In this document: positions 1,714 to 41,953 of the stretch, piece by piece
Numbering within the stretch: the first letter of the stretch is position 1
How the letters are laid out: every line of letters starts with the position of its first letter
From: Latilactobacillus curvatus JCM 1096 = DSM 20019
GTDB taxonomy: Bacteria > Bacillota > Bacilli > Lactobacillales > Lactobacillaceae
Length of the DNA: 64,000 nucleotides
Direction of reading: 5' to 3'
Assembly (NCBI RefSeq): GCF_004101845.1
Contig: NZ_CP026116.1
Coordinates: 1,240,001 to 1,304,000, forward strand
Notes under the pieces: model-generated
Databases searched by the model: none
What the model was told of the DNA's origin: nothing
What the model saw: the letters and a program-made list of their open reading frames with translations, nothing else
Translations under genes and position numbers: made by a program

Positions 1714-2631
1714 GTGCAAAAAATCAATGTTGGTGGCAGCGGCTTAATGGCTTCGCCAATTGTCTGGGGTGTCATGCGCATCCCACAACTGAGCGACCAA
1801 GAAGCCCTGACAATGCTCGAAACCGCCTATGAACATGGGATTAATTACTTTGATAACGCTGATATTTACGGCGATGGTGCTTCCGAAATTAAATTCGGGA
1901 ACGCCCTTAAGGCCAGTCATATTGACCGTGATCAAGTGCTCGTTCAAACCAAAGTCGGCATTGGCAAAAAAATGTACGACTTTTCAAAGGAACACATCAT
2001 CGAAGGTGTTGAAGCCAGCCTCAACCGATTACAACTTGATCATGTTGACACCTTGCTGCTCCACCGACCTGATCCACTCATGGAACCGGATGAAATCGCT
2101 GAAGCCTTCTTAAAATTGCAAAATAGTGGTAAAGTCCGCCAATTCGGGGTCAGCAACTTCAATCCCGGTCAAGTCGACTTACTCCAACAAGCAGTGCCGC
2201 AAGCATTGATTGCTAATCAACTCCAATTCAGTTTGATGCACACTGGTATGATTGATGCCGGCGTGCATACCAATATGCAAGACGCGCGCAGCATTCATCA
2301 CGATGGTGGTTTATTAGAATACTCACGCCTCACGAATATGACCATTCAAGCATGGAGTCCTTATCAATACGGCATGTTTGAAGGGGTCTTCATCGATAAT
2401 CCGAAATTTCCAGAATTAAACGCAGCACTCCAATCAGTTGCCAAGGCACATGACACCAACGTCAACGCAATTGCTAGCGCATGGCTCCTCAGAATTCCAG
2501 CCAGCATGCAAGTCGTTGTCGGCACAATGAACCCCGGCCGCCTAGCACAAATCTGCGAAGCAGACAAAGTCACCCTCACCAGAAGAGAATGGTACGACCT
2601 ATACTTGGCAGCAGGCAATGACCTGCCATAA
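1714..2631 (+). CDS. Aldo/keto reductase
   Basis: The 305-residue NAD(P)H-dependent reductase is of the YdhF/YcsN type. The catalytic tetrad is visible: Asp and Tyr in DNADIYGDG (about residue 48), Lys in QTKVGIG and His in LLHRPD. The C-terminal SAWLLRIP...VVGTMNP segment binds the cofactor's adenosine. GTG at 1714 is chosen because GGAG (1701-1704) is 9 bases upstream; an in-frame TTG at 1708 would be only 3 bases from it. A hairpin element begins at the stop codon. The physiological substrate is unknown. Confidence 0.88.
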   Translation: MQKINVGGSGLMASPIVWGVMRIPQLSDQEALTMLETAYEHGINYFDNADIYGDGASEIKFGNALKASHIDRDQVLVQTKVGIGKKMYDFSKEHIIEGVEASLNRLQLDHVDTLLLHRPDPLMEPDEIAEAFLKLQNSGKVRQFGVSNFNPGQVDLLQQAVPQALIANQLQFSLMHTGMIDAGVHTNMQDARSIHHDGGLLEYSRLTNMTIQAWSPYQYGMFEGVFIDNPKFPELNAALQSVAKAHDTNVNAIASAWLLRIPASMQVVVGTMNPGRLAQICEADKVTLTRREWYDLYLAAGNDLP

Positions 2632-2750
2632 AGTGCTGAGATAGCCGTTTATCACTTGAAGATTAGCCTATCACCAGGAATTATGGTGGTTTCCGGCCAT
2701 GATTTTTGTTGTGTAGTGAACCGGAAGGTTATGGCTATCGAAGCATGTTT
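2631..2750 (+). repeat. Diverged intergenic hairpin element (copy 1)
   Basis: It starts at the aldo/keto reductase stop codon (TAAAGTGC). Left arm GATAGCC followed by GTTTAT is matched by ATGGCTATC on the right, and the end resembles the GAAGCATGTTT variant of the family's AAGCACGTTT. The centre is strongly diverged from the other copies. A further left-arm fragment, AGTACGTTTAAAACGGTTAG, follows at 2752-2771 without a right arm. Confidence 0.5.
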
Positions 2751-2803
2751 AAAGTACGTTTAAAACGGTTAGTTTCTAAGTAAGTAGTAATTGTGCATTA
2801 AGC

Positions 2804-2848
2804 AAAAAAAGCGCCGTCTCAATTAATCTTGAGACGGCGCTTTTTTTG
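2804..2848. terminator. Bidirectional terminator
   Basis: Perfect stem GCGCCGTCTC / GAGACGGCGC flanked by A7 and T7, between the convergent aldo/keto reductase and nuclease genes, so it can serve both. Confidence 0.9.
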
Positions 2849-2855
2849 GTTCTAC

Positions 2856-3662
2856 TTAATTCTGATAAGGATTGCCTGCATACTGATCCACCACCGCCAT
2901 CGATCCATCGTAATGGCCGCGACCGGTTGCATAGTCAAATTGCATCTTAGGTTGTACATTCCAAACATACGCATTAAAGTTCAACTTCTTATCTGTTGAG
3001 ATTGCTTGAACCCAGTAACCGCGGGGCATCAATTCATCTCCACGGAACACAGTTGTCACTTGGTAAATCACCTTTTTATTTTGCGTTAGTGCTTGGCGAA
3101 CCTGGTCTTCAAAAATCTGCATGGTACGTTGATTGCTGAAGACCGTTTGTGTCGCTAAGTTCTTCGGATTATTGCTACTGCCGAGTTCCCCTTTTTGGAA
3201 AACACCATCTCGGTTGAAATTAAACGAAATCGCGTATGCAATCAAATGGCCGCGACTTTCAGGAAAGACCCGTTGGCCATCAATCATCACGGGTTGATTA
3301 TGCCAGCCGGTTGGTTGCCACGTTTGACGATGGCGTGTGTTTGAACGGCCTAACGTCTCTTTCGATAAGAAAGCCGTATTAGTCGTTGTCCGATTTAAAC
3401 CATCCAACGCACCATACTTGATCCGTTCGGTTTGCCATTGACGGACATCCAACGTTGATTTATTATGGTTCACTTCTAAATAGGCATTGTCGCCTGACTT
3501 AAAGGTCTTCTCAGTCAAGATTGCCGTTGTTTTTTTAACTTGTTTTTTATTTGCAATTGTTGGTGCATTCTCGTGCGTTGGTTGACTAGATTGTGTCGCC
3601 TGACAGCCACCCAACGCCAACATGGTCAACGATAAGCCGACCAATAAATACTTTTTAAACAT
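2856..3662 (-). CDS. Secreted DNA/RNA non-specific endonuclease lipoprotein (EndA-like)
   Basis: The 268-residue protein has a lipoprotein signal (LSLTMLALGGC), so it is probably anchored outside the membrane. The nuclease core contains SRGHLIAYAI followed by NFNRDG and the metal-binding Asn region NNPKNLATQT. This matches the beta-beta-alpha-metal DNA-entry nuclease family. The family motif is DRGH; here the first residue is Ser, while the general-base His is kept. ATG at 3662 is chosen because GGGAGGAACAGG precedes it and the signal peptide starts there. Its first 8 bases overlap the end of the MATE gene, implying translational coupling. Confidence 0.82.
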   Translation of the reverse strand: MFKKYLLVGLSLTMLALGGCQATQSSQPTHENAPTIANKKQVKKTTAILTEKTFKSGDNAYLEVNHNKSTLDVRQWQTERIKYGALDGLNRTTTNTAFLSKETLGRSNTRHRQTWQPTGWHNQPVMIDGQRVFPESRGHLIAYAISFNFNRDGVFQKGELGSSNNPKNLATQTVFSNQRTMQIFEDQVRQALTQNKKVIYQVTTVFRGDELMPRGYWVQAISTDKKLNFNAYVWNVQPKMQFDYATGRGHYDGSMAVVDQYAGNPYQN

Positions 3663-5016: not shown

Positions 5017-5162
5017 ATCAATTCTCCTTTGCTCCATGTTGATAACTTCTCAAATTATACACCAAAAACAGCGTTTACATCTGTCTTAAATTGAATTAAG
5101 TCTCTCATATTCAACTTTAAAGTACCATCAAAAAGCATCTATTATTCCACTATATTAGTCTA

Positions 5163-5213
5163 TAAAAAAACAGTTAAACAAGTCATTCAGCGACTTGTTT
5201 AACTGTTTTTTTA
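5163..5213. terminator. Terminator downstream of trpS
   Basis: Long perfect stem CAGTTAAACAAGTC / GACTTGTTTAACTG with A7 and T7 on either side. It lies between trpS and the MATE operon, both on the minus strand, so it mainly ends trpS transcription. Confidence 0.88.
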
Positions 5214-5225
5214 ATTTGAATAGGA

Positions 5226-6263
<1,038 letters not shown>

Positions 6264-6269
6264 TTATCA

Positions 6270-6510: not shown

Positions 6511-6516
6511 ACTGTC

Positions 6517-6545: not shown

Positions 6546-6604
6546 TCGGTCGCTTTTTTACCCCAAGACGCTTATAATATAACAACTAACAATTGGAGGC
6601 TGCT

Positions 6605-8899
6605 ATGTTACACGAAGACACAAAACAACAAGAACAAGCGCGCGTTGACCGCACAGTTATACAGGTCGACCAACGCCTCACAGTGATTAACCAACAATTG
6701 GCCAACGCCTACAATGAAACCAAAGACATCGAACAACGTTACGGCGACAATACGAAAGTCAACATTACCGAAGTCGATGACCGCATGGAAACCAACGCCG
6801 CGGTCCAACAACAAAAGCAATTGGTCGCCGCCGCTGTCGAAAACGAAAAATTACTGACTAGCCAACAAGAACGCCTGACCGATCTCGTCAACTCCCCTTA
6901 CTTCGGTCGGATTGACATCACCGAAGATGGTGAAACGGAATCACTCTACATCGGGACCGCCACTTTTATCGACGACCAAGACAATTTCTTAATCTACGAC
7001 TGGCGCGCCCCTGTTTCGAGTATCTACTATAATGGGACACTCGGTCCAGTGACTTATGAGACGCCAAATGGCCCTGTCAAAGTTGACCTCAAACTCAAAC
7101 GCCAATTCAAGATTCAAAACGGTCAAATCGAACACGTCTTTGATACGAACGAAACTGTCGGCGATGAACTCTTACAAGCCGTCCTCGGTGAACAAAGTGA
7201 CGAATATATGCAAAACATCGTTGCCACGATTCAAAAAGAACAAAATGATATCATTCGCGATACAACCGCTGACTTACTGATTGTCCAAGGGGTCGCCGGT
7301 AGTGGTAAAACCTCAGCTGTCTTGCAACGCATCGCCTTTTTACTCTATCACAGCCGCAGTCAGCTCGAAGCCGACCAAATGGTGCTCTTCTCACCCAACC
7401 GTTTATTCAGCCATTATATTTCAGAAGTCCTGCCTAGTTTAGGCGAGAAAAACATGCGCCAAGTGACGATGGCCGAGTTCTTAAGTCATCGCTTCTCAGG
7501 CTTACAGGTTGAGAACCTCTTCGACCGCTTCGAAAAAGATCAAGCCAGTTTTCCTGAAATGACACAAGCCATGCGCCGGTATAAAGAAAGCGCAGCGTTC
7601 ATGCACGTAATTGAAGCTTACGTTAAACAAGCCTCAACCCAACCGTTGGCATTCAACGATCTATACTTCGAAGACCGCCCATTTTTTACTAAAGACCAGA
7701 TGAATCAGATTTATCTCGCGCTCCCCGCAAATATGTTACCCGGCGACAAATTCCTCGCCACTAAAAACACGCTCATCAAACGGCTTAAACGCCAAATCAA
7801 CCTCGAAGTTCATCTCGACTGGGTCGCTGAAAAAATCGATACCTTAACCGATGATGCTTACCGGACGATTGTCGGTGACCGCGAATTCGATTCTGGCGAT
7901 GATGAACAAGCTTTCATCGCTCGTGAAATCGTTCAAAGTTATTTCGCCCCACTCTATGAATCAATCTACAATGATTATTTCCTAGATGAATCCACAGAAT
8001 ATCAACACTTCTTAAGTGGTGCTTGCCCTGCCGACATCCCTACGAAGGTTTGGGACGCCATGATTCGCCAAGTCGCGGATAACAATGAACGCCACATCGT
8101 CGGGCTCAGTGACGCCGCCCCAATTCTATACCTGCGCGACTTATTAACTGACAGCGGCCAAAATCACGGCATTCAGTACCTCTTCATCGATGAAATGCAG
8201 GATTACAGCATCGCTCAGTTCGTCTACATCCACCACGCCTTTCCCAACGCGAAATTAACCGTTCTCGGCGATTACGCACAGGATGTCTTCACGGCGACCT
8301 ACCAAACCGGCCACTTCATCGATCAACTGACCGCTGCTTTTCCCCGCTTAAAAATCAACCAAATTAGCTTAACCAAGAGTTACCGCGCGACCGCCCCAAT
8401 CACCAACTTCGCCAAGGCACTCTTGCCAAAAGAAACAGCCCTCCAAGCCTTCAGCCGTGACGGGCGCCTACCGCGCGTCATTGAGACGCCAAACGACCAA
8501 GCGCTCGCTACACTGACCCAAGAAATCCGCCATCTCCAGGCAGAACACGCGACCGTTGCGATCCTCACCAAGAACCAACAAGTTGCCCACCAACTCTACG
8601 CTAGTTTAACACCTGATGAACACGTCACACTCATCGGTGAAACAACCCGTAGTTTACCCAAAGGCATCCTAATCCTTCCATTATACTTAGCCAAAGGGCT
8701 CGAGTTCGACGCTGTGATTGGCTACGACATCTCTAAGAAGACCTTCGGCGCACAATCAGACGTAGATCTCCTCTACACACTCGTCACACGTGCTATGCAC
8801 GATTTAACACTGATTGGCGTGGATCAGCTCAGTCCGTTGATAGTGGCACTGCCGACGGACATCTATACTACCTTACAATCAACTAAGCAATCCATTTAA
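6605..8899 (+). CDS. helD: RNA polymerase-recycling helicase-like ATPase HelD
   Basis: The 764-residue protein is of the UvrD/Rep superfamily 1 type. A charged coiled-coil N-terminus (residues 1-70, many Gln/Glu/Lys) precedes the Walker A VAGSGKTSA (about residue 230) and the DEMQD-type Walker B FIDEMQDYS (about 527). Late motifs include TKSYRAT and YLAKGLEFDAVI. This layout fits HelD, which binds RNA polymerase and pushes stalled complexes off DNA. ATG at 6605 has GGAGG 5 bases upstream. A TATAAT at 6573-6578 is the likely -10. It is divergent from trpS. Confidence 0.85.
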   Translation: MLHEDTKQQEQARVDRTVIQVDQRLTVINQQLANAYNETKDIEQRYGDNTKVNITEVDDRMETNAAVQQQKQLVAAAVENEKLLTSQQERLTDLVNSPYFGRIDITEDGETESLYIGTATFIDDQDNFLIYDWRAPVSSIYYNGTLGPVTYETPNGPVKVDLKLKRQFKIQNGQIEHVFDTNETVGDELLQAVLGEQSDEYMQNIVATIQKEQNDIIRDTTADLLIVQGVAGSGKTSAVLQRIAFLLYHSRSQLEADQMVLFSPNRLFSHYISEVLPSLGEKNMRQVTMAEFLSHRFSGLQVENLFDRFEKDQASFPEMTQAMRRYKESAAFMHVIEAYVKQASTQPLAFNDLYFEDRPFFTKDQMNQIYLALPANMLPGDKFLATKNTLIKRLKRQINLEVHLDWVAEKIDTLTDDAYRTIVGDREFDSGDDEQAFIAREIVQSYFAPLYESIYNDYFLDESTEYQHFLSGACPADIPTKVWDAMIRQVADNNERHIVGLSDAAPILYLRDLLTDSGQNHGIQYLFIDEMQDYSIAQFVYIHHAFPNAKLTVLGDYAQDVFTATYQTGHFIDQLTAAFPRLKINQISLTKSYRATAPITNFAKALLPKETALQAFSRDGRLPRVIETPNDQALATLTQEIRHLQAEHATVAILTKNQQVAHQLYASLTPDEHVTLIGETTRSLPKGILILPLYLAKGLEFDAVIGYDISKKTFGAQSDVDLLYTLVTRAMHDLTLIGVDQLSPLIVALPTDIYTTLQSTKQSI

Positions 8900-11911: not shown

Positions 11912-12007
11912 TGCGGCGAATGCGGTACTGAAATCGCAAGCATTGCTGCTTTTCGTCTGGTGTCCACATTCCGTTCCACCAGCACTTAACGCTTCAGTCC
12001 TACTCCG
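11912..12007 (-). promoter_or_regulatory. Tetrahydrofolate (THF) riboswitch
   Basis: Reading the minus strand from 12007, the sequence begins CGGAGTAGGACTGAAGCG, followed by the conserved TTAAGTG core, GGAATGTGGAC and CACCAGACG. The closing strand TTTCAGTACCGCATTCGCC pairs back with the 5' side. This matches the folT THF riboswitch class. A CTCC-AAAA-GGGAG hairpin just before the start codon can hide the ribosome binding site, suggesting translational control. Confidence 0.85.
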
Positions 12008-12097
12008 AATTTTTAGAACCCCTTAAATGTATCACTAACGTTATTTAATTACAAGCAATTGATTTTCATTTTTCAGCAACTCTTGCAGAAAATTTGC

Positions 12098-12146: not shown

Positions 12147-13121
12147 ATGAAGAAAATTTTAGTCCTCCATACTGGTGGCACAATCGCAATGTCTGCGGAC
12201 GAAGATGGCGCGGTTGCACCCACAGATCAAAATCCAATGGCCGGCTTTGAAAAGCTGTTCGATAATCAATTAATCATTGAAAGTGAAGAGTTCGCCAATC
12301 TGCCTTCACCACACATCACACCCGCTGTGATGTTAAACCTTAAGAATCGAATTCAACAAGCTGAAGAAGACGGGATTGATGGTGTTGTTGTCACACACGG
12401 GACGGATACCCTCGAAGAGACCGCCTATTTCTTAGACTTGACACTTCCCAACAATATCCCCGTCGTCGTGACTGGTGCGATGCGCTCGTCGAATGAAATC
12501 GGCGCAGACGGATTACACAACTTGATTAGTGCCGTTTGGACAGCCGCTTCTGACGATGCTCATGATAAAGGTGTGCTAGTCGTGATGAACGATGAGATTC
12601 ACACAGCACGGTATGTCACGAAGACGCACACGACGAACGTCGCAACCTTTAGAACGCCAACTTTTGGTCCCATCGGTTTGGTCAGCAAACACAATGCGAA
12701 TTTCTTCCAAGAATTAATTCGTTCTGAAATTTGCGACATCAAAACCCTTGTCGAACCTGTTTATCTTTTAAAAGCATACGCTGGCATGGATGGGACTTTA
12801 TTCGACGCCATCAACCAACCCAACACCAAAGGGCTCGTTATCGAAGCACTCGGGGCTGGTAACTTACCACCAGCAACCTTACCCGCTGTTCAAGCGCTAT
12901 TAGATCGCAACATCCCCATCGTACTTGTTTCTCGCTGTTTCAACGGGATTGCCGAAGACGTCTACGATTACCAAGGCGGCGGTGTAAAGCTTAAACAAAT
13001 GGGCGTCACCTTCTGCCAAGGCCTCAATGGACCAAAAGCACGCCTCAAACTACAAGTCGGCCTCAGCGCAGGCAAAACAGGCGCAGCATTAAAAGAATTT
13101 GTCAGCAACGCAACATCATAG
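12147..13121 (+). CDS. ansA: Type I L-asparaginase
   Basis: The 324-residue cytoplasmic-type enzyme hydrolyses L-asparagine to aspartate and ammonia. It carries both active-site threonine motifs: HTGGTIAMS (about residue 10) and THGTDTLEET (about 86). The conserved VVVTGAMRSSNEIGADG also follows. AAAGGTG precedes the ATG. Its TAG stop is the first triplet overlapping a downstream hairpin element. Confidence 0.92.
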   Translation: MKKILVLHTGGTIAMSADEDGAVAPTDQNPMAGFEKLFDNQLIIESEEFANLPSPHITPAVMLNLKNRIQQAEEDGIDGVVVTHGTDTLEETAYFLDLTLPNNIPVVVTGAMRSSNEIGADGLHNLISAVWTAASDDAHDKGVLVVMNDEIHTARYVTKTHTTNVATFRTPTFGPIGLVSKHNANFFQELIRSEICDIKTLVEPVYLLKAYAGMDGTLFDAINQPNTKGLVIEALGAGNLPPATLPAVQALLDRNIPIVLVSRCFNGIAEDVYDYQGGGVKLKQMGVTFCQGLNGPKARLKLQVGLSAGKTGAALKEFVSNATS

Positions 13122-13238
13122 AGTGCGTCATCAACGGTTAGCTTCTGAGCACTTGCCTAACTTAGCGAATTGACGCTGTAAGCGCCGATTTGATAAGTGT
13201 AGCAAAGCGCAGGAAGCTGTTGATGAAAACACGTTTTC
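13121..13238 (+). repeat. Intergenic hairpin element (copy 2)
   Basis: It opens GAGTGCG sharing the G of the ansA TAG stop. Left arm CATCAAC, then CGGTTA, then AGCTTCTGAGCA. Right side GCAAAGCGCAGGAAGCT, GTTGATG, then the end ACACGTTTTC. CATCAAC/GTTGATG pair perfectly. An inner stem TTAGCGAATTGACGC / GCGCCGATTTGATAA forms the tip. Confidence 0.85.
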
Positions 13239-13242
13239 GATA

Positions 13243-13363
13243 GAGTGCGTTTGAAACGGTTAGCTTCTGAGCATTAACTGGATTTGCCGAATTGGCGATG
13301 AAATCGCCGATTTGGTAAATTGGGTTAAGCGCAGGGAGCTGTTTCAAAAAGCACGTTTCAATA
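13243..13363 (+). repeat. Intergenic hairpin element (copy 3)
   Basis: It follows copy 2 in the same orientation, again starting TAGAGTGCG. Arms TTTGAAAC / GTTTCAAA differ from copy 2 but still pair. Conserved CGGTTAGCTTCTGAGC and GTTAAGCGCAGGGAGCT flank an inner stem TTTGCCGAATTGGCGAT / ATCGCCGATTTGGTAAA. The end is AAAGCACGTTTC. Confidence 0.88.
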
Positions 13364-13380
13364 AATATTCGAAGATAACA

Positions 13381-13426: not shown

Positions 13427-13428
13427 TT

Positions 13429-13522
13429 TAAACGTGCTTCCTCGAACTGCCTTTTCCGGTTAACTGAATAATTGGGATTATCCCGTTAATCCTCAAAGCT
13501 AACCCGTTCGACTCAGCGCTCT
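13429..13522 (-). repeat. Intergenic hairpin element (copy 4), overlapping a gene end
   Basis: On the minus strand it begins GAGCGCTGAGTCGAAC-GGGTTAGCTTTGAGG, where GAG CGC TGA are the last two codons and stop of the thioesterase. The right arm has GTTCGAG and ends AAGCACGTTT. TCGAAC/GTTCGA pair. The inner stem is shorter (GGGATAATCCC). Confidence 0.8.
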
Positions 13523-14259
13523 TTCCACGTAATTTCCGCTTCTGCTGCACTTAGGTCATCCACGGCGACTTTATGCCGTGTTGTGATTATATCATCAACT
13601 GTGAGTTGTTCGACCATGCTTTGGGTCATTTCACCGTATTGAATTTCGTGGCCGTAGCGGATGTTGACACTTGCTACGCGGTGTGTCGTCAAGAAGTCAT
13701 AATCGAGCGCATCCAACATCCATTCAAAATAATGGACGTTATTAACGTGTTGATTACCATCAATATCGAAATAACGCACACGATATTCTTTGGTCGTCAC
13801 TTGTTCGGGATCAATCTTCTTAATCCGTGGGAATCGTTTGCTACCTTTAATCTCACTTGACTCGAATGGTGCCATGATTTCCGGCACAACTTGCACCATA
13901 CTCCGTGTTTCATACGACATCATCACGAAGATGCTTTGGACGAAGACGCATTCGTTGCCGGCTTCATCATATAACCAGAAATTCCGGTAACAGAAATACT
14001 TGTTGTAACTCTCAGCTTCAGTCACAATTTTAACTTTTTCATCCACCTTCGGCATCCGCGTAATCTTCATTTGATACTGCGTGACCACCCAACCAAGATT
14101 GAGCGCATGCATTGTCGCTTCACCGACGTTGAGCGCATTAAGTTGATGCTCTGATGCTAAAATTAAAATGTTCACCAAGGATGCAAGCGTTAATTCGCCC
14201 TTGATATCCGTTTCGAAATACGGAATTTGATAGTTTTCTGAATATTGCTTTCCTGGCAT
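13513..14259 (-). CDS. Acyl-ACP thioesterase
   Basis: The 248-residue double hot-dog protein resembles bacterial FatA/FatB-like thioesterases, which release fatty acids from acyl carrier protein. YQIPYFETDIKGELTLASLVNILILASEHQLNAL opens the first hot-dog. The second has VRYFDIDGNQHVNNVHYFEWMLDAL near residue 157, containing the conserved Asp/Asn-His pair. It is 10 bases downstream of rsmI and likely co-transcribed. Its last codons (Glu-Arg-stop) lie inside a hairpin element. Confidence 0.85.
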   Translation of the reverse strand: MPGKQYSENYQIPYFETDIKGELTLASLVNILILASEHQLNALNVGEATMHALNLGWVVTQYQMKITRMPKVDEKVKIVTEAESYNKYFCYRNFWLYDEAGNECVFVQSIFVMMSYETRSMVQVVPEIMAPFESSEIKGSKRFPRIKKIDPEQVTTKEYRVRYFDIDGNQHVNNVHYFEWMLDALDYDFLTTHRVASVNIRYGHEIQYGEMTQSMVEQLTVDDIITTRHKVAVDDLSAAEAEITWKER

Positions 14260-17593: not shown

Positions 17594-17661
17594 AAAACAA
17601 CCTTCTTCATCCATAGAGTTACTTCCATTTTACTTGATTCAACAAAAGACGTAAAGGGAAG

Positions 17662-17719
17662 AGTGCGTATCCGGCGGTTATGTTCTTGCGTTTAGCGTGC
17701 GACAGCAGACGTTTGAAAT
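17662..17719 (-). repeat. Degenerate hairpin-element fragment (copy 5)
   Basis: GAGTGCG, GGCGGTTATG and GCGTTTAGCGTGCG resemble the conserved blocks of the intergenic element on the plus strand, but arms and inner stem are mostly missing. It lies just downstream of yaaL. Orientation is uncertain. Confidence 0.35.
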
Positions 17720-21543: not shown

Positions 21544-21590
21544 GCAATTAAAAATGGTGCCGACGGATTGTCGATACCATTTTTAATTGC
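21544..21590. terminator. Long perfect inverted repeat, probable terminator
   Basis: GCAATTAAAAATGGT (21544-21558) is exactly complementary to ACCATTTTTAATTGC (21576-21590). It is between the 21701 gene's hairpin element and tadA. A-rich/T-rich arms would act as a weak terminator either way. Confidence 0.6.
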
Positions 21591-21591
21591 T

Positions 21592-21703
21592 CCATAAGCC
21601 ATCCTCTTCCGTTTAACTGCAAAATGAGCATTATGGCAAGGACTGCCATAATGCTCATTTCACTGTTAATGCTCAAAGCCTGACCAACTCGAGTCGCACT
21701 CTA
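21592..21703 (-). repeat. Intergenic hairpin element (copy 6), right end altered
   Basis: On the minus strand it starts TAGAGTGCG, using the stop codon of the upstream gene, then ACTCGAGTTGG and GGCTTTGAGCATTAACAGTG. The inner stem is a different type: TGAGCATTATGGCA / TGCCATAATGCTCA. The right side GCAGTTAAACGGAAG is present, but the AAGCACGTTT end is missing. Confidence 0.78.
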
Positions 21704-22045
21704 TAGTTTTTCTTTCACCTTTGTTGCGTAAGCCATTAGTGTTTGGCGCAAATCATCCATCATATCTGGTAGATTGTCTGCGTGTTCTCCGAGCTTATCT
21801 TTTAATTGGGTTAACCTGTCTGCCGCAGTCAACAAGTTATTCACATCCGCATCGGAGAGTTGATCGACCAACTCTAACGCCTTTTGATTACCATGTAATT
21901 TGTCTTTTACAAAACTTTTAACTGCTAATCGTTTGCGATAGCGCGATACTTTATCGATTACTGCCTTAGAACCGACAAAAGCGGTCGTTGCGCCAACTGC
22001 TGCAGTCACCCCTACGCCGATTAAAATTTTATATCTGGTTTTCAT
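21701..22045 (-). CDS. Small membrane-anchored protein of unknown function
   Basis: The 114-residue protein has one N-terminal hydrophobic helix (ILIGVGVTAAVGATTAFVGS) and a charged helical remainder rich in Lys/Asp/Leu, likely coiled coil facing the cytoplasm. This resembles YtxH/DUF-type stress proteins, but the match is not firm. A good ribosome binding site (AAGGAGGTTG) precedes the ATG. A hairpin element begins at its stop. Confidence 0.65.
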   Translation of the reverse strand: MKTRYKILIGVGVTAAVGATTAFVGSKAVIDKVSRYRKRLAVKSFVKDKLHGNQKALELVDQLSDADVNNLLTAADRLTQLKDKLGEHADNLPDMMDDLRQTLMAYATKVKEKL

Positions 22046-25666: not shown

Positions 25667-25768
25667 TAAAACGTGCTTTCATTAACTGCTTTCTGCGCTT
25701 TGCTACATTAGTCAAATCACCGGCTGATTAGGCAAATGCTCAAAAACAACCCGTTAATGACGCACTTT
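25667..25768 (-). repeat. Intergenic hairpin element (copy 7)
   Basis: On the minus strand AAAGTGCGT-CATTAAC-GGGTTG...TGAGCATTTGCC, inner stem CTAATCAGCCGGTGATTTGACTAATG-type, then GCAAAGCGCAGAAAGCA-GTTAATG-AAAGCACGTTTT. CATTAAC/GTTAATG pair. It lies in tandem with copy 8. Confidence 0.82.
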
Positions 25769-25772
25769 ATTT

Positions 25773-25896
25773 TGAAACGTGCCATTGGCGCTAGATTTCT
25801 GCGCTTAACTACAAATCGGGCATCATGGCTTAGATCGCCGCGATGCCCGATTTTAGGTTAGTGCTCAAAATCTAAACAAGCGCCAAGGGCGCTCTA
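25773..25896 (-). repeat. Intergenic hairpin element (copy 8)
   Basis: On the minus strand TAGAGCGCCC-TTGGCGC-TTGTTTAGATTTTGAGCACTAAC; inner stem AAATCGGGCATC / GATGCCCGATTT; GTTAAGCGCAGAAATCTA-GCGCCAA-TGGCACGTTTC. TTGGCGC/GCGCCAA and AGATTT/AAATCT pair, so both arm blocks co-vary. It starts 7 bases after the rplL stop. Confidence 0.85.
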
Positions 25897-25902: not shown

Positions 25903-26271
25903 TTATTTCAAGTTAACGACAGCGCCAACTTCTTCTAATTTAGCTTTCATTTCTTCTGCTTCGTCTTTAGCAACGTCTTCTTTAAGAGCTGAAGGAGCGT
26001 TATCAACTAAGCCCTTAGCATCTTTCAAGCCTAAGCCTGTGATTTCACGAACGGCTTTGATAACTTTAACCTTTTCTTGGCCGATTTCTGATAATTCAAC
26101 AGTAAAGCTGTCTTTTTCAGCTGCTGCGTCTGCGCCAGCTGCACCTGCTGCTGCTACTGGAGCTGCTGCAGAAACACCGAATTCTTCTTCGATTGCTTTA
26201 ACTAAGTCGTTTAATTCTAAGATTGATGATTCTTTTAATTGATCAACAATTGCATTTACGTCTAATGCCAT
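25903..26271 (-). CDS. rplL: 50S ribosomal protein L7/L12
   Basis: The 122-residue stalk protein has the N-terminal dimerisation helices ([23 protein letters not shown]), an Ala-rich hinge ([18 protein letters not shown]) and the factor-binding domain with [23 protein letters not shown] at 26271 follows GGAGG by 8 bases. It is the second gene of rplJ-rplL. Confidence 0.97.
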
Positions 26272-26334
26272 TTTTGTTTCCTCCATTTTGTGGGTAATAT
26301 TTTTTGATAACACTTTTAACTACACAATTTTAAA

Positions 26335-26838: not shown

Positions 26839-26894
26839 TTGATTCACCTCCATTAGATTTGTAAAACTTGTGGTCAAGAGTTCCTTATAAAAAT

Positions 26895-27011
26895 AAAAAA
26901 CTCCATGTCCACCAAGACATAGAGAGGGATTTCAACGTATCTTCCTCGGCAGGATATTAAGCCTATTGGCACCTGAGTCTTCGGTAGCATAAATAACCAA
27001 CTACAAATATA
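26895..27011 (-). promoter_or_regulatory. L10 leader (ribosomal protein autoregulation) with attenuator
   Basis: On the minus strand, after an extended -10 TGCTATATT (27014-27006), the transcript contains ACCGAAGAC...GGTGCC and AATATCCTGCCGAGG, the conserved L10-leader core. The hairpin CTCTATGTC / GACATGGAG with T6 (26895-26924) is the terminator. L10(L12)4 binding to such leaders represses rplJL. Confidence 0.88.
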
Positions 27012-34032: not shown

Positions 34033-34151
34033 TGAAACGTGCTTTTTGAAACTGACTCTTGCGCTTAACTACATTTGTCAAATCGGCGCTTGTAGCACCA
34101 ATTCGCCAAATTAGGTTAATGCTCAGAGTCAATCCGTTTCAAACGCACTCT
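34033..34151 (-). repeat. Intergenic hairpin element (copy 9)
   Basis: On the minus strand GAGTGCG-TTTGAAAC-GGATTGACTCTGAGCATTAAC; inner stem AATTTGGCGAATTGGTGCT / AGCGCCGATTTGACAAAT; GTTAAGCGCAAGAGTCA-GTTTCAAA-AAGCACGTTTC. GACTC/GAGTC also pair. It is tandem with the minimal copy 10. Confidence 0.9.
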
Positions 34152-34155
34152 TTTT

Positions 34156-34199
34156 TCGAAACGTGCTCCTTCAGTCATCCCGCCTGAAGTCGCACTCTA
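34156..34199 (-). repeat. Minimal hairpin element (copy 10)
   Basis: Only 44 bases long. On the minus strand TAGAGTGCGA-CTTCAG-GCGGGATGA-CTGAAG-GAGCACGTTTCG. Both conserved termini and one pairing arm remain while the whole interior is gone. Its first three bases are the nusG stop codon. Confidence 0.82.
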
Positions 34200-34745
34200 A
34201 ACTAGTTCGTCTACTTGGTCGTAGTCTAATTCTGTTGCTGTTTCACGACCGAACATGTCGATGTTAACCTTTAATTTCATCTTTTCATCGTCAACTTCTG
34301 TAATTTGACCAACAAGGCCAGCGAAAGCCCCTTCGATAATCTTCACAGATTCGCCGACTTTGAACTCAACATCCAAATGACGGGTGCTCATGCCAAGTTG
34401 ACGCAAAATTTGTGTGATTTCATCGTCTAATAATGGGGCTGGTTTACTGCCGGCACCGTGTGAACCAACGAAGCCTGTCACACCTGGTGTATTCCGCACA
34501 ACGAACCAAGCTTCGTCTGACATCACCATTTCAACCAAAACATAGCCTGGGAAAGTCTTCTTCATGTCGACTTTTTCCTTACCGTTTTTGATTTCATGTT
34601 CTTCTTCTTCAGGCACCACAACGCGGAAAACATTGTTCTCCATCCCCATTGATTGGGCACGCGATTCCAAGTTTGCCTTCACTTTATTTTCGTAACCTGA
34701 ATATGTGTGTAAGACATACCAACTTTTTTCGATTGATTCAACCAT
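34197..34745 (-). CDS. nusG: Transcription termination/antitermination protein NusG
   Basis: The 182-residue protein has an NGN domain (WYVLHTYSGYENKVKANLE; FPGYVLVEMVMSDEAWFVVRNTPGVTGFVG) and a C-terminal KOW domain (GESVKIIEGAFAGLVGQI). ATG at 34745 follows AAAAGGAG. Its stop TAG is part of a minimal hairpin element. It follows rpmG and secE. Confidence 0.97.
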   Translation of the reverse strand: MVESIEKSWYVLHTYSGYENKVKANLESRAQSMGMENNVFRVVVPEEEEHEIKNGKEKVDMKKTFPGYVLVEMVMSDEAWFVVRNTPGVTGFVGSHGAGSKPAPLLDDEITQILRQLGMSTRHLDVEFKVGESVKIIEGAFAGLVGQITEVDDEKMKLKVNIDMFGRETATELDYDQVDELV

Positions 34746-34843
34746 GTGAATTCTCCTTTTAAATACCAAAATAAAAAAACTCCGACCACGCGAAGTTTTT
34801 TGCTTGCCATCAGTATAGCAAATCCGACTTAATTAAGCCAGTT

Positions 34844-37251: not shown

Positions 37252-37442
37252 AATTTTCCCGCCCTTTTCATAAATAATCATATAGTTTGTATCAACCTTC
37301 ACACAAAGTCAGTTTATCTTTTTTATGTAAAAAGTTCAAGTCTTTTAAATCACTTATTTTACGGCGATTAACTTTGGTTTTACACAATTTAAAACGGTTT
37401 CCTTAATAGTCATCAATCCCATTAATCTTATCCGTGAATAAA

Positions 37443-37471
37443 TAGACAATCTTTAGTTTATTCTGTATAAT
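37443..37471 (+). promoter_or_regulatory. Promoter of ndh2
   Basis: TAGACA (37443-37448), 17-base spacer, TATAAT (37466-37471), 47 bases before the ndh2 start. Confidence 0.75.
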
Positions 37472-37517
37472 GGATACTGATTGAAAACGCATTTATTTCA
37501 TTTAGGGGTGGCTCATC

Positions 37518-39413
37518 ATGGCTCAAAAAAACATCGTCATCATCGGTGCCGGTTTTGCCGGGATCTATGCGACTAAAAAACTTGCGAAATATTACAAGAA
37601 GAATCCAGATTATCAAATTACATTAATCGACAAACATTCCTACTTTACGTATTTAACGGAATTACACGAAGTAGCTGCTAACCGCGTGCCAGAAGACCAC
37701 GTTCAACACGATTTGCAACATCTCTTCTGTCGCCGCAAAAACGTTAAGTTGGTGACCGATACGGTAACCCGCATCGATCAAGCAAACAAAACCGTCATTA
37801 CTGAACATGGACGCTACGCCTATGATCAAGTTATGTTGGGGATTGGGAGTGAACCTAACGACTTTGGCACACCTGGGGTTGCCGAACATGGTTTCACTTT
37901 AGGTTCATGGGAACAGGCTGTTGAATTGAAGCAACATATTATCGATGTTGTTCGTCGTGGGGCAATTGAACACGACCCAGAAAAACGCCGGGCCCTTTTG
38001 AATATCGTGGTTGTTGGTTCTGGCTTTACCGGAACTGAAACTATCGGCGAATTACGCGACTGGCGTGATGAACTAGCAGCTGATAACAAGATTGATCCCG
38101 AAGAAATCCAATTTACAATGATGGAAATGGCACCAACCATCATGAACATGCTCGACCGCAACGATGCAGCCAAAGCAGAACGCTACATGGCTAAACAAAA
38201 AATTGATGTTCGCAAGAATACCGGTGTTACAGGTGTTCACGAAATGCATGTTGATTTAAATGATGGTTCAACTTTCCCAACTGCCACTCTAATCTGGACA
38301 GCTGGTGTCAAAGCTTCCTCACAAACGGCACAATTTGGCCTAACAACCGGTAAAGCCGGCCGAATCGTGACAAACGAATTCATGCAATCTGTTGACGATG
38401 ACAAGATTTACGTTGTCGGCGATGTGGCTTTCTTCGATGAAACTGATGACGGCCGCGGTCAACCCCAAATTGTTCAAGGCGCCGAAGCATCTGCTGCAAC
38501 AGCCCTAAAGAACATCATCGCAACTGAAGAAGGTAAAGCAAAAGTCCCATACAAAGGGAGCTATTCCGGCTTCATGGTTTCAATTGGTTCTCGCTATGCG
38601 GTTGCCAACTTGATGAATTTCTTCCATCTCAGTGGGTTCTTTGCCACATTAGTTAAACATTTAGTCAACATGCTCTATTTTGTTCAGATTTATTCTGGCT
38701 ACGATTTATTCCACTATTCAATGAATGAGTTCTTCAGAACGAAGAACGATCGCAACTTGATGCGCGGTCATATTTCACGGTATGGTAATGTTTTATGGAC
38801 AGTTCCTGCGCGAATTTTCTTAGGCGCAATGTGGCTTGTTGATTGTTGGGACAAGGTTCAAGGTGAAGGTTCTTGGTTCACCAATAAGCTCCGGTTACCT
38901 TTTGACTGGCTTCAACCAGCTGTCACCAGCGGTGCTTCTAAAGCGGCGGATGCAACAAGTGCTGCTAGCGGTGCCGCTGCAGGCGGGGCTGCTGAACCAG
39001 CAACTGCTAAAGTCACATTCGGCCTTTCTTACTTATTCGGTCATGATCCAATGCCCGTCTTCGATAAGATGCCCCACTGGTTCTACAGCATCACGAAGGT
39101 CTTGATTCCAAACCAAGAAGTCGCCTTCTTCATGCAAAAAACAATGACCATCATTGAAATTTTAATTGGCTTAGCTTTAATTGCTGGTCTCTTCACTTGG
39201 TTAACGAGCGCAGTAACCGTTGCAATGGTTATCACATTCTGCCTTTCAGGGATGTTCTATTGGGTTAACATTTGGATTATTCCAATGGCCCTCGCCTGCA
39301 TGAACGGTTCAGGCCGTGCCTTCGGATTAGATAAATGGGTTGTTCCATATTTACAAAAACATCTCGGTCACTGGCGCTACGGCCAACAACGTGCACTATA
39401 CAAAAATCAATGA
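37518..39413 (+). CDS. ndh2: Type II NADH:quinone oxidoreductase with C-terminal membrane domain (Ndh2, EET type)
   Basis: The 631-residue protein has an FAD site VIIGAGFAGIYATKKLAKY at the N-terminus, an NAD site VVVGSGFTGTETIGEL near residue 163, and VYVVGDVAF near 294. Canonical NDH-2 ends near 400-450. Here an extension carries a membrane segment (about 430), an Ala/Gly-rich linker (473-497) and four hydrophobic helices (about 540-620) resembling DoxX. This is the architecture of the EET-specific Ndh2, which feeds electrons to demethylmenaquinone. GGGGTGG precedes the ATG. The stop TGA overlaps a hairpin element. Confidence 0.88.
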   Translation: MAQKNIVIIGAGFAGIYATKKLAKYYKKNPDYQITLIDKHSYFTYLTELHEVAANRVPEDHVQHDLQHLFCRRKNVKLVTDTVTRIDQANKTVITEHGRYAYDQVMLGIGSEPNDFGTPGVAEHGFTLGSWEQAVELKQHIIDVVRRGAIEHDPEKRRALLNIVVVGSGFTGTETIGELRDWRDELAADNKIDPEEIQFTMMEMAPTIMNMLDRNDAAKAERYMAKQKIDVRKNTGVTGVHEMHVDLNDGSTFPTATLIWTAGVKASSQTAQFGLTTGKAGRIVTNEFMQSVDDDKIYVVGDVAFFDETDDGRGQPQIVQGAEASAATALKNIIATEEGKAKVPYKGSYSGFMVSIGSRYAVANLMNFFHLSGFFATLVKHLVNMLYFVQIYSGYDLFHYSMNEFFRTKNDRNLMRGHISRYGNVLWTVPARIFLGAMWLVDCWDKVQGEGSWFTNKLRLPFDWLQPAVTSGASKAADATSAASGAAAGGAAEPATAKVTFGLSYLFGHDPMPVFDKMPHWFYSITKVLIPNQEVAFFMQKTMTIIEILIGLALIAGLFTWLTSAVTVAMVITFCLSGMFYWVNIWIIPMALACMNGSGRAFGLDKWVVPYLQKHLGHWRYGQQRALYKNQ

Positions 39414-39531
39414 GTGCGTTTGAAACGGTTTGACTTTAAGCATTAGCACAGGGAAGCGAATTAGCGACATAGTCGATGATTTGATTCACAGCGCTAAACG
39501 CAGAAAGTTAACTTCAAAGCACGTTATAAAA
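39412..39531 (+). repeat. Intergenic hairpin element (copy 11)
   Basis: GAGTGCG begins inside the ndh2 TGA stop. Left TTTGAA-ACGGTTTGACTTTAAGCATTAGC; inner stem GAAGCGAATTAGCGA / TCGATGATTTGATTC; right GCTAAACGCAGAAAGTTAAC-TTCAAA-GCACGTT. Arms pair with a bulged CGGTT. Confidence 0.87.
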
Positions 39532-39533
39532 CT

Positions 39534-39654
39534 GAGTGCGTCAAAAGCGTTTATTCTATGCGGATTAGCAAAATTAGACGAATAACTAGCGTAGCTAGTT
39601 GTTTGGCTAATAGTGCTAAACGCAATAGAATGCTTTTGAAAGCACATTATAAAA
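39534..39654 (+). repeat. Intergenic hairpin element (copy 12)
   Basis: Tandem to copy 11, same orientation. GTCAAAAGC-GTTTATTCTATGCGGATTAGC; inner stem TTAGACGAATAACTAGC / GCTAGTTGTTTGGCTAA; GCTAAACGCAATAGAAT-GCTTTTGA-AAGCACATT. CAAAAGC/GCTTTTG and ATTCTA/TAGAAT pair although both differ from the other copies. Confidence 0.88.
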
Positions 39655-39676
39655 GCAATTCACAGCTATCAAAAGG

Positions 39677-39718
39677 AGGGGGTTATGACAGACAGGCTTT
39701 TGTCATAACCCCTTTTAT
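39677..39718 (+). terminator. Terminator after ndh2
   Basis: GGGGTTATGACA / TGTCATAACCCC followed by TTTTATT, separating ndh2 from eetA. Confidence 0.85.
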
Positions 39719-39747
39719 TGCTATTTTAGAGAGAAAGACTGACGCCT

Positions 39748-40194
39748 ATGTTTAAACAAATTCGCGCTAACCGTTACATCAAAATGATTCGCCCTGGTGA
39801 TATAATAGTAGTCATCGGCCTGTTTATTCTATCGTTTGCCCCAGTTGCTGTTTTTAGTTGGCACGAATGGCAAACGACGCAAGCAGCGGATTCAAACGCG
39901 CAGGTATTGACGGCCTACGTCAAACACGATGGCAAAACCGTCTACAAAGTGAACCTAACCACCCACCATGGTGTTAGCCACTTCACTTATCGCGATGCCG
40001 GCGGTGATTACAACAAAATTAAGGTAACCGATCATGCCATTGAGGTCACTGAAGCCAATTGCTTCAATCAGATTGATGTTAAGCGTGGCAAAATTTCTAA
40101 GCCAGGCCAAACCATTGTTTGCTTACCACACAAGTTACTGATTGAAATTAAAGCCAAGGATGGGACCGACACGGGCGGGATGGTTTCTGCCTGA
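39748..40194 (+). CDS. eetA: EET protein EetA (NusG domain II-containing membrane protein)
   Basis: The 148-residue protein has one N-terminal membrane helix (IIVVIGLFILSFAPVAVFSW). An extracytoplasmic NusG-domain-II fold follows (ITEA-like EVTEANCFNQIDVKRGKISKPGQTIVCLPHKLLIEI), with a conserved Cys pair. This is the EetA type of extracellular electron transfer loci. Its role there is accessory and not chemically defined. The upstream ribosome site is weak (GAGAGAAAG). eetB follows after 18 bases. Confidence 0.85.
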   Translation: MFKQIRANRYIKMIRPGDIIVVIGLFILSFAPVAVFSWHEWQTTQAADSNAQVLTAYVKHDGKTVYKVNLTTHHGVSHFTYRDAGGDYNKIKVTDHAIEVTEANCFNQIDVKRGKISKPGQTIVCLPHKLLIEIKAKDGTDTGGMVSA

Positions 40195-40212
40195 TTTAAA
40201 AGGAGTACAGCG

Positions 40213-40746
40213 ATGACTAACGATCAAACGCGTAAATACATCTATATTGCACTCTTGTGCGCTCAAGGGATTATTATTGGCCTTGTCGAACGCGCGATTC
40301 CATTTCCATTTGCCGTAGCCCCGGGTGCTAAGTTGGGACTAGCCAATTTAATTACCATCATTTCGTTATTTACCCTACCGGTCAGCGACTGCTTTTTATT
40401 GATGGTGATGCGAACTGTTTTATCCGCCTTGCTAGGGGGAACCCTCTCTACTTTTATGTATAGCATTGCTGGGGCAACGCTAAGTTTCTTTGGCATGGTA
40501 CTCCTCAAGCAATTTAGCCGCCGCTTTATGAGTATGATTGGCATCTCAGCTGCTGGTGGTCTGCTCTTTAATGTCGGTCAACTCTGCGTCGCGAGTTTCA
40601 TTGCCCAGAGTTGGCAAGTCCTCCTCTATCTACCAGTGCTTGCTTTTCTCGGTATTCTCGCCGGAATTGCGGTCGGCGTAGCCGCGAATTTTTTATTCGA
40701 ACATGTCAAAACCCTGACTTTTTTAAAAGCCCAACACGAAATTTAA
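40213..40746 (+). CDS. eetB: EET membrane protein EetB (Gx transporter family)
   Basis: The 177-residue protein has five to six helices: IALLCAQGIIIGLVERAIPFPFAVAPGAKLGLANLITIISLF, then LMVMRTVLSALLGGTLSTFMYSIAGA. It belongs to the family once labelled heptaprenyl diphosphate synthase component I. Adjacency to eetA and a polyprenyl synthase identifies it as EetB. It could pass quinone or flavin intermediates, which is an inference. AAAGGAG precedes the ATG. Confidence 0.87.
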   Translation: MTNDQTRKYIYIALLCAQGIIIGLVERAIPFPFAVAPGAKLGLANLITIISLFTLPVSDCFLLMVMRTVLSALLGGTLSTFMYSIAGATLSFFGMVLLKQFSRRFMSMIGISAAGGLLFNVGQLCVASFIAQSWQVLLYLPVLAFLGILAGIAVGVAANFLFEHVKTLTFLKAQHEI

Positions 40747-40764
40747 TTTAACAAGGAGTTAATT

Positions 40765-41745
40765 ATGGCGAAAGTACATGCCATGTGGCAGAACTATCCA
40801 GAAATCGAAACCGAACTTGCGCAAAGTCTTGCGCTCATTGAAGACAACATTCACACCAAAAATCAAGCCGTCACCGACGCCATTTTAAAGATGATTAGTG
40901 CTGGCGGCAAGTTGCTCCGCCCTGCTTACTGCTTATTATTTTCACAGTTTAATGCAGTCGATCGACAGAAGATGATCGCATTAGCCGCCGCTGTTGAAAC
41001 GCTACACACTGCGACATTAATTCATGACGACATCGTTGATGATTCCAATTTACGTCGCCATCAAGAATCGATTCAAGCCCGTTTCGGCAAAGATGTCGCC
41101 GTTTACGCTGGCGATTACTTATTCGTTGTCTGCTTCAAGTTACTAGCCAATTATGCGAGCGATTTGAAGAGCATCCAATTTAACAGCCAAACGATGGATC
41201 AAATTCTTGACGGTGAACTCAGTCAGATGACAACCCGATATAATCTCGATTTAACCCCCGAACAGTACCTACAACAAATTAACGGTAAAACCGGCCAACT
41301 GTTCGCGCTCAGTTGCTTCATCGGTGCTTACGAAAGCCAAAAGGGCTTGAAGTTTGCCCGCCAAGCCGAGAAAATCGGCTTAAATATCGGTCTCGCCTTC
41401 CAAATTCTGGACGATATCTTAGATTACACTCAGACCGATGTCGATTTTGGCAAACCAGTTCTCGATGACATGCGACGCGGCGTCTACTCGATTCCGTTAA
41501 TCATGGCACTGCAATCCAATCGCCAAACATTAGCACCCTACTTGGAAAAACAAGCAGCTATGACTGATGCCGATGTGCACGCTGTTCAAGGCATCGTCCG
41601 TCAATCTGGAAGTGTCGAAAAAGCCCAAGCACTCGCACAAGATTACACAAACCGCGCACTCGCTGGTCTTGCGAAACTACCCGACATGCCCGCAAAAACA
41701 ACGCTACAACAATTAACTGAACGTTTATTAACCAGAAAAGCCTAA
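40765..41745 (+). CDS. Polyprenyl diphosphate synthase (DmkB-like)
   Basis: The 326-residue trans-prenyltransferase has a first Asp-rich motif LIHDDIVDDSNLRR (about residue 90), GKLLRPAYCLL upstream and a second motif FQILDDILDYTQ near 213. It makes the isoprenoid tail for the quinone prenylated by MenA. It ends the eetA-eetB-dmkB operon. AAGGAG precedes the ATG. Confidence 0.9.
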   Translation: MAKVHAMWQNYPEIETELAQSLALIEDNIHTKNQAVTDAILKMISAGGKLLRPAYCLLFSQFNAVDRQKMIALAAAVETLHTATLIHDDIVDDSNLRRHQESIQARFGKDVAVYAGDYLFVVCFKLLANYASDLKSIQFNSQTMDQILDGELSQMTTRYNLDLTPEQYLQQINGKTGQLFALSCFIGAYESQKGLKFARQAEKIGLNIGLAFQILDDILDYTQTDVDFGKPVLDDMRRGVYSIPLIMALQSNRQTLAPYLEKQAAMTDADVHAVQGIVRQSGSVEKAQALAQDYTNRALAGLAKLPDMPAKTTLQQLTERLLTRKA

Positions 41746-41786
41746 AAAAGACGGACAACATGTTAGAAATGTTGTCCGCCTTTTAT
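41744..41786 (+). terminator. Terminator of the eetAB-dmkB operon
   Basis: ACGGACAACAT / ATGTTGTCCGCC followed by TTTTATT. Confidence 0.88.
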
Positions 41787-41792
41787 TCTCGA

Positions 41793-41830
41793 CTTAATGC
41801 TCAAAAGTTGACCAAGCTTGAATGCACTCA
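41793..41830 (-). repeat. Hairpin-element half copy (copy 13)
   Basis: On the minus strand GAGTGCATTCAAGCTTGG...AACTTTTGAGCATTAA, the left half only. No right arm precedes the operon terminator. Lies in tandem behind copy 14. Confidence 0.65.
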
Positions 41831-41834
41831 TTTT

Positions 41835-41953
41835 TTAACGTGCTCCTCGAACAGTCTTCTCCGGTTAACTGCAAAAAGGGCATTATGGCAAGTCCCGCCA
41901 TAATGCCCTTTTCTCTGTTAATCCTCAAAGCCTACCCAGTTCGAGTCACACTC
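41835..41953 (-). repeat. Intergenic hairpin element (copy 14)
   Basis: On the minus strand GAGTGTGA-CTCGAAC-TGGGTAGGCTTTGAGGATTAAC; inner stem AAAAGGGCATTATGGC / GCCATAATGCCCTTTT (second inner-stem type); GCAGTTAACCGGAGAAGACT-GTTCGAG-GAGCACGTT. It lies just 3' of tRNA-Thr. Confidence 0.87.

Follow-up and report, generated by a model that had tools for sequence, protein, structure and literature searches.

Structured hairpin repeats that abut stop codons and change content at kept sites in Latilactobacillus curvatus and relatives

Hairpin elements in the window

The window analysed here is a stretch of 64,000 nucleotides (nt) of Latilactobacillus curvatus JCM 1096 = DSM 20019 (contig NZ_CP026116.1, positions 1,240,001 to 1,304,000), in which intergenic hairpin elements of one family recur next to genes. 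A preliminary description made from the sequence had listed 14 copies, and all 14 sites hold members of the family, with the shared ends, the 4-nt bulge, the constant blocks TGAGCATTAAC / GTTAAGCGCAG and the copy-specific arms, pairing within each copy, that had been described; the copies vary among themselves. A covariance model built from 10 window copies (R1) detects 11 of the 14 at E ≤ 0.01, and the remaining three (17661, 34153 and 41793) are truncated or miniature forms recognised by eye only. Read in the sense of the upstream gene, a unit runs from (T/A/C)AG through AGTGCG, arm 1, the GGTT bulge, arm 2 and TGAGCATTAAC into an apical stem, and from there through GTTAAGCGCA, arm 2' and arm 1' to GCACGTT, with variations. 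At about 118 nt from AGTGC to GCACGTT (mostly 118-123 nt), the unit is a single nested hairpin with a fixed 4-nt bulge, and the conserved middle of the hairpin is TGAGCAUUAAC / GUUAAGCGCAG. Flank profiles give NAGAGTGC as the 5' consensus and place the boundaries at NAG/AGTGC on the 5' side and GCACGTT/T on the 3' side.

The elements are given here with strand and R1 score. A divergent element at 2629..2750 (+; 56.5 bits, E 9.8e-14), which folds, lies directly 3' of the TAA stop of gene 1708-2631, and a degenerate second piece behind it reaches to about 2790. The full elements e1 (13119..13236, +; 119 bits) and e2 (13241..13358, +; 121.4 bits) form an array in which the TAG of e1 is the stop codon of gene 12147-13121; e1 is absent in L. 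fragifolii (G002), where the TAG stop is retained and followed by CACGTTT. Element e3, with a short apex (13430..13523, -; 64.3 bits), sits at the end of gene 13513-14259 (-), and the truncated e4 (17661..17716, +; by eye) has a longer counterpart at the same site in L. fragifolii. The full element e5 (21584..21703, -; 62.6 bits), which has a long apical stem, stands at the stop codon of gene 21701-22045 (-) and is absent in G004, where the stop codon position is retained. About 6 nt past the stop of gene 25903-26313 (-) lies the full element e6 (25775..25896, -; 94.1 bits), absent in L. fragifolii, followed by e7 as second array unit with a short apex (25669..25769, -; 85.6 bits).

At the stop of gene 34197-34769 (-) we observed a miniature, e9 (34153..34200, -; by eye), which consists of one short hairpin with both conserved ends and is followed by the full second unit e8 (34035..34152, -), whose 124.1 bits are the best score in the genome; G001 and G005 hold other units at the identical base of the e9 site. 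The TGA of the full element e10 (39410..39526, +; 90.4 bits) is the stop of gene 37518-39413, with the full element e11 (39532..39649, +; 107.2 bits) as second unit, and the e10 site in L. fragifolii is a remnant. Finally, the full element e13 (41836..41955, -; 93.0 bits) begins a few bases past a tRNA gene (41962-42034, -), and the truncated e12 (41793..41838, -; by eye) runs into a terminator-like hairpin.

Copy number and distribution

The family extends far beyond the window. The R1 search returned at least 150 places in the genome of DSM 20019, all at E ≤ 2.1e-6, and the window together with the fetched surroundings of elements gave at least 172 places in the 1.9-Mb genome, 5 of them on a small contig, C2, after weaker opposite-strand overlaps and repeats from overlapping loci had been removed from 236 matches. 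The further copies for which the preliminary description had proposed a covariance-model search are thus present in number. Many are arranged head-to-tail with a period of about 123 bp, and the 172 places fall into 96 same-strand arrays (39 single, 40 double, 15 triple and 2 quadruple), 3 of which lie on C2, share flanks with arrays of the main contig C1 and are not independent. Dispersed chromosomal copies are at most 96.5% identical to each other, so the spread is not very recent. C2 (18445 bp) carries places at 1900, 11056 and 12283 with the same flanks as C1:1481543, C1:1590349-1590467 and C1:1589245, and it may be a duplicated or redundant piece of the assembly.

A second model built from 36 sequences of several genera (R2) found matches at E ≤ 1e-4 in 23 of 40 genera of the Lactobacillaceae (165 of 301 genomes), in surveys that scored 12-14 candidates per genome, for which absence is weak evidence. 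In a 250-genome spread of the class, R2 matches were confined to the L. curvatus genome and G517, a genome of another family, and weaker relatives occur in G046, from another family of the same order. Among the matches listed by a pattern scan were the genera Levilactobacillus, Lapidilactobacillus, Paucilactobacillus, Latilactobacillus and Lacticaseibacillus; 79 of the 80 listed scan loci were searched with R1 to obtain the set from other genera, with 5 of 119 matches excluded (three partial or cut, one opposite-strand and one weak at 40.6 bits). The pattern also matched contig L155 from Prevotellaceae and contig L207 from Ferrimonas; we take these matches as chance, R1 giving none there at E ≤ 1e-5. 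Carriage by phages was rejected, element e2 having no match in a phage collection, and in a plasmid collection it matched only two L. curvatus records, including CP117684.1.

The family appears to be without a published name. Rfam 15 gave 7 matches in the window at the gathering score, none of them on any element, and the region 13100-13380 gave only snoRNA matches with E of 3.1 and 3.7, far under the gathering scores. No description of such a hairpin family in Lactobacillaceae was found in the open-access literature, most subscription papers lying outside the scope of the search. The doubt of the preliminary description about a name is borne out to that extent.

Pairing is maintained on the sense strand

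The elements are structured, and their pairing is kept by compensatory change. Both partners vary in 28 of 45 pairs among the 10 window copies, and in 41 of 45 in the 36-sequence alignment. The 10 rows scored 0.415 for covariation, a level reached by none of 500 shuffles (0.173), and sliding the partner gave no more than 0.143; the score of the 36 rows was 0.594, compared with 0.191 when shuffled and at most 0.206 with slid partners, all on measures that are not R-scape and are inflated by kinship among the sequences. In structure-free MAFFT alignments of 117 elements from the L. curvatus genome and 67 foreign ones, most of the top covariation fell in both sets on the diagonals i+j=124 and i+j=120, whose step of 4 is the 4-nt bulge. 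Of the top 40 pairs, 31 (own) and 28 (foreign) form standard pairs in over 75% of rows, a level found for 13% and 11% of random column pairs. The compensatory change claimed in the preliminary description is therefore confirmed in the L. curvatus genome and, separately, in other genera.

That description had left the level of the structure between RNA and cruciform. Since a constraint on the cruciform predicts G-U and A-C mismatches in equal number, we counted both in the sense reading of 163 own elements scoring 60 bits or more and found 555 G-U to 166 A-C; G-U was in excess in 141 elements and A-C in 8, with 14 ties. In 114 elements of other genera the ratio was 407:44. The same asymmetry was observed among orthologous units at the same site, in which changes away from a Watson-Crick pair led to G-U 27 times and to A-C 11 times in 10 unit pairs, and 25 and 8 times in a second set of 17 unit pairs (combined 52:19, two-sided p = 1.1e-4). 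Orthologous differences were also rarer at paired positions (44/866 and 44/1462) than at unpaired ones (56/322 and 43/544). On these counts we reject a constraint on the cruciform and conclude that it is the sense strand that is kept folded, a fold still guarded after insertion. The evidence favours RNA as the constrained form, single-stranded DNA of the sense strand being less likely. Outer arms were unpaired in only 14 of 164 elements, as opposed to 53% of random combinations of halves, suggesting that chimeras arise and stay rare.

Position at stop codons

Arrays of the L. curvatus genome sit at stop codons. Counting a same-strand frame of at least 80 codons whose stop ends -9 to +2 nt from AGTGC, 62 of 96 arrays begin at a stop codon, 34 of them exactly. 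The controls scored far lower: 2 of 96 for the opposite array end on the opposite strand, 31 of 4000 for random points, and 265 of 4000 in the same band for random points placed 0-150 nt behind a stop. In two sister species (G001 and G005), 42 of 59 arrays lie at a stop codon, 9 exactly, after exclusion of 18 of 146 matches (13 opposite-strand and 5 short). Several own arrays away from stop codons have truncated units before them, by eye.

Relatives that have no element at the sites of e1, e5, e6 and e8/e9 terminate the gene at an unchanged codon, indicating that the elements follow the native stop. On these grounds we mostly reject the alternative in which an inserting element cuts a gene short and provides its stop codon. 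At e10, the frame in G004 continues a few codons further.

The two boundaries of a unit are linked. With A at -2 (109 of 150 units), T follows GTT in 101, and with another base at -2 (41 of 150 units), the base following GTT is A in 37, C in 2 and T in 2. Most arrays have a uniform end type, the exceptions being 3 mixed ones among 42 with more than one unit. Covariation links columns -2 and +1, with 84% standard pairs, but a base pair does not account for the common AGA...A class. Further on, past the element end, there is often either a terminator-like hairpin or a ribosome-binding site with a start codon, the latter within 50 nt in 9 of 26 of type A versus 5 of 68 of type T (p = 0.002).

Exchange of units at kept sites

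Sites are kept between species while their content is exchanged. Of the 59 arrays of G001 and G005, 27 lie at the site of an L. curvatus array, a fraction that is no rate of site sharing, the L. curvatus loci covering only the surroundings of elements. They fall on 21 distinct sites, where the flanks agree at 75-99.7% identity. In 13 of the 27 comparisons the hairpins are unrelated, no pair of units at the site reaching an identity of 0.75 (random own pairs average 0.64), and in 21 of the 27 the best-matching unit lay elsewhere in the genome. The end type nevertheless agrees at 19 of the 21 distinct sites, and the 5' boundary is often identical to the base. Flanks are closest between L262:2828 (G001) and window position 25775, at 99.7%, with different elements behind them; the remaining flanks in G001 and G005 mostly lie between 75 and 98%.

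Exchange also reaches inside the unit. Among 129 parsable units of 158 (8195 pairs), outer and inner parts were both alike in 30 pairs; 8 pairs shared outer parts at 90% or more with inner parts at 60% or less, and a further 8 shared inner parts at 90% or more with outer parts at 65% or less. A like 5' outer part was found in 118 pairs, the 3' outer part being also alike in 80 and the inner part in 42. In these comparisons, outer arms and inner stems behave as modules shuffled within the genome, and, the hairpin being nested, a swap of the inner stretch would leave the arms matched.

Arrays recombine by whole units. The strain comparison took in 400 kb of L. curvatus CP117684.1 (592 kb) and 50 kb of NZ_CP016468.1 (220 kb). 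Eight arrays have chromosomal flanks 98.5-100% identical to CP117684.1, and a 3.2-kb stretch of the small contig reaches 99.9% identity to it. Of 33 strain placements, 31 had both flanks, and among these 28 were of equal length, 2 differed by whole units and 1 carried an unrelated insertion. In one of the two differences, two units are absent in the other strain; in the other, DSM 20019 carries a unit that looks chimeric, with parts of two units meeting at the conserved GCTAA(A/G)CGCAG. An empty site, with an array in one strain and no unit at all in the other, was not seen in the 31 comparisons.

In strain CACC879 (L297, near 7479-7952, the site of own array 1868316), about 350 bp of extra sequence lies behind the array, flanked by repeated AACCATTCAAACT; by eye, it holds a short frame resembling the small membrane peptide of a type I toxin-antitoxin system.

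Discussion

We lean towards reading these elements as exchangeable RNA hairpin modules of gene 3' ends, turned over by recombination and spread by a putative mover. Such modules would flank many protein-coding genes on the 3' side and, in the window, one tRNA gene. A unit would be transcribed as part of the upstream mRNA, immediately past the stop codon, and the transcribed unit would fold into one long hairpin with its fixed 4-nt bulge and conserved middle. Such a hairpin would most likely act as a 3' cap that blocks 3'-to-5' decay, or as an insulator that separates the gene from the following terminator or the next gene of the operon. Exchange would probably occur by recombination at short conserved blocks, and a trans-acting mover or partner protein may read the bulge and the middle. 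The preliminary description had offered a choice between non-autonomous elements and structures of the 3' untranslated region (3'-UTR). Each of the two retains some support: a 3'-UTR structure is favoured by the location at stop codons and by the constraint seen between orthologous copies, and copy number, patchy distribution and exchange of content show that the elements have been mobile.

Several observations weigh against this account. In other genera, abutment to a stop codon is seen at only 28 of 97 arrays (13 exactly), counted with a shorter minimum frame allowed close to the ends of loci, and 30 of 114 elements lie directly behind a T-rich tract resembling the end of a terminator, which would place them outside the normal transcript and thus argues against a simple 3'-UTR reading there. 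The wobble bias is absent at positions 29-40 of own elements (80:78), and some events behind the 52:19 count may be shared by both sister species. Similarly, some sites among the 27 same-site comparisons were counted with both sister species, and 8 of the 27 hold orthologous units with an identity of 0.85 or more, so that exchange is not universal. Moreover, 136 of the 301 Lactobacillaceae genomes have no R2 match, and the family is hence not essential.

The elements could instead be purely selfish non-autonomous repeats of the REP or miniature inverted-repeat transposable element (MITE) kind, whose transposase reads the folded sense strand as single-stranded DNA and for which stop codons are merely harmless sites. 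High copy number, a patchy distribution over 23 of 40 genera, tandem arrays, differing units at an identical site across species and the positions behind T-tracts in other genera would all suit such an element. We nonetheless regard this as unlikely, though worth serious weight. The stretch in which an insertion does no harm extends beyond the stop codon: random points 0-150 nt behind stops fell into the tested band in 265 of 4000 cases compared with 62 of 96 arrays; pairing is guarded between orthologous copies after insertion; and none of the 31 two-strain comparisons set an array against no unit. Nor did we find a matching enzyme. The Y1 transposase domain PF01797 gave no match at E ≤ 0.001 in G000 (the L. 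curvatus genome itself), G001, G002, G003 and G005, and G004 holds a single sub-threshold match containing two stops; the reverse transcriptase domain PF00078 was absent from all six Latilactobacillus genomes, in a search limited to these two enzymes, other transposases and recombinases not being searched. A Y1 partner in the own genome and an origin as a group II intron derivative or other partner of a reverse transcriptase were rejected on these results. No target-site duplication was seen by eye in the flank profiles.

Structured sites behind stop codons, shuffled as units by a site-specific recombinase, would recall the attC sites of integrons, and the orientation with the gene, the kept fold with free sequence, the tandem units and the exchanged content at kept sites all fit. 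Here, however, it is the hairpin that is exchanged and not a gene cassette, the flanking gene order of the window is the same in relatives, and the 5' consensus NAGAGTGC contains no attC R-box, making such an origin quite improbable. Two further possibilities we consider very improbable. Long near-palindromes are known to be corrected by template switching during replication, which copies arm onto arm and could produce compensatory change without selection; this neutral process predicts G-U and A-C in equal number, in conflict with the observed 555:166 and 407:44 and with the 52:19 among orthologues. A family of intrinsic terminators or attenuators, equally hard to credit, would explain hairpins placed at gene ends, but the elements end in GCACGTT and have no T-run of their own.

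Returning to exchangeable 3'-end modules, a bolder version can be proposed. That a site keeps its boundary bases while the module changes could point to a recombination or copying process that is undescribed and specific to the hairpins. Lactobacillaceae might thus possess a cassette-like system of 3'-UTR exchange, in which stop-codon sites are kept and draw modules from a genome-wide pool, and in which RNA modules rather than genes are shuffled, setting the stability or coupling of the mRNAs that they end. We regard this version as rather unlikely.

If the modules do act at the 3' ends of RNAs, they would represent a common and unstudied layer of regulation in food and probiotic bacteria; irrespective of function, a large structured repeat family present in over half of 301 genomes of the Lactobacillaceae apparently lacks a name. 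Kept sites with changing content further provide a natural experiment, as sister species differ in the hairpin behind one and the same gene and the effect on its mRNA is directly measurable.

Relation to known repeat systems

In kind, the elements are small structured intergenic repeats, and the nearest described ones are Efa-1/EFAR of Enterococcus faecalis, two names that probably denote the same repeat. The likeness lies in intergenic, structured, high-copy repeats of a Lactobacillales genome. EFAR repeats are reportedly of modular make-up and are said to have inserted into a pre-existing stem-loop, leaving parts of the stem at the ends; to our knowledge, neither abutment to stop codons nor exchange at the same site is among their features. 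The covariation of columns -2 and +1 (84% standard pairs) would fit retained stem parts, but element-free sites, read as sequence, show a stop codon at the point. Efa-1 measures 163 nt and forms two adjacent stem-loops, according to the excerpted text of Petrillo et al. 2008 (PMC2267715). The units described here differ in forming one nested hairpin of about 118 nt and not two stem-loops in 163-170 nt. In G046, probably a member of the Enterococcaceae, elements with the same plan gave R2 E-values of 3e-9 to 6e-7 in 5 of 6 loci, some overlapping, and 7.7e-4 in the sixth, and a piece of an E. faecalis record is 79% identical over 63% of one G046 element, with a fold alike by eye. Because the two-hairpin plan is lacking and R2 gave no match to the E. 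faecalis stretch (L347) at E ≤ 1, we do not claim membership in Efa-1/EFAR.

Bacterial REP and REPIN sequences, whose cognate Y1 transposases are the RAYT proteins, are likewise high-copy intergenic palindromes with tandem arrays and bulged hairpins. They carry a GTAG or CGTC tag, which the present flanks, NAG/AGTGC and GCACGTT/T, do not show. The present units also differ from REP/REPIN palindromes in their 118 nt, against 20-40 nt in the part of PMC3733652 drawn on here, and in the lack of a Y1 match in 5 of 6 Latilactobacillus genomes. BOX and RUP of Streptococcus pneumoniae and ERIC of enterobacteria are comparable, by description, as intergenic repeats with a conserved fold; we know of no abutment to stop codons or exchange at kept sites in any of them. 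ERIC is co-transcribed with its neighbours and affects mRNA stability, as stated in an excerpt of PMC2229807. The Lac-1 repeat of Lactobacillus johnsonii, as far as the excerpt of PMC2267715 goes, lies within coding sequence.

Intrinsic terminators differ in the T-run directly behind their hairpin, which the units ending in GCACGTT lack. Integron attC sites lie behind stop codons, keep their fold with free sequence and have R-boxes at both ends. They share the first two traits with the present family, which is without gene cassettes and has different ends, the 5' end being NAGAGTGC.

Additional observations

Outside the Latilactobacillus arrays, loci L345 and L346 of G517 hold units with the same ends and plan, two of them in tandem at L346. 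At L140, L141, L181, L190 and other Levilactobacillus loci, 3' half units alternate by eye with long conserved spacers, an array type more complex than that of Latilactobacillus. The record CP117684.1 (591981 bp), labelled a plasmid, carries alaS, mutS, mutL, groEL and ccpA in addition to many elements and looks like a piece of chromosome. Within it, the hypothetical protein PSR33_08230 is annotated over an element (L297:865-1119; CP117684.1 200865-201119), and the family thus affects annotation, with at least one copy mis-called as a gene. Among the Rfam matches of the window itself, three on the minus strand mark a Ref68 / Lacto-3 small RNA (59780-59919), a THF riboswitch (11912-12009) and an L10 leader (26885-27002).

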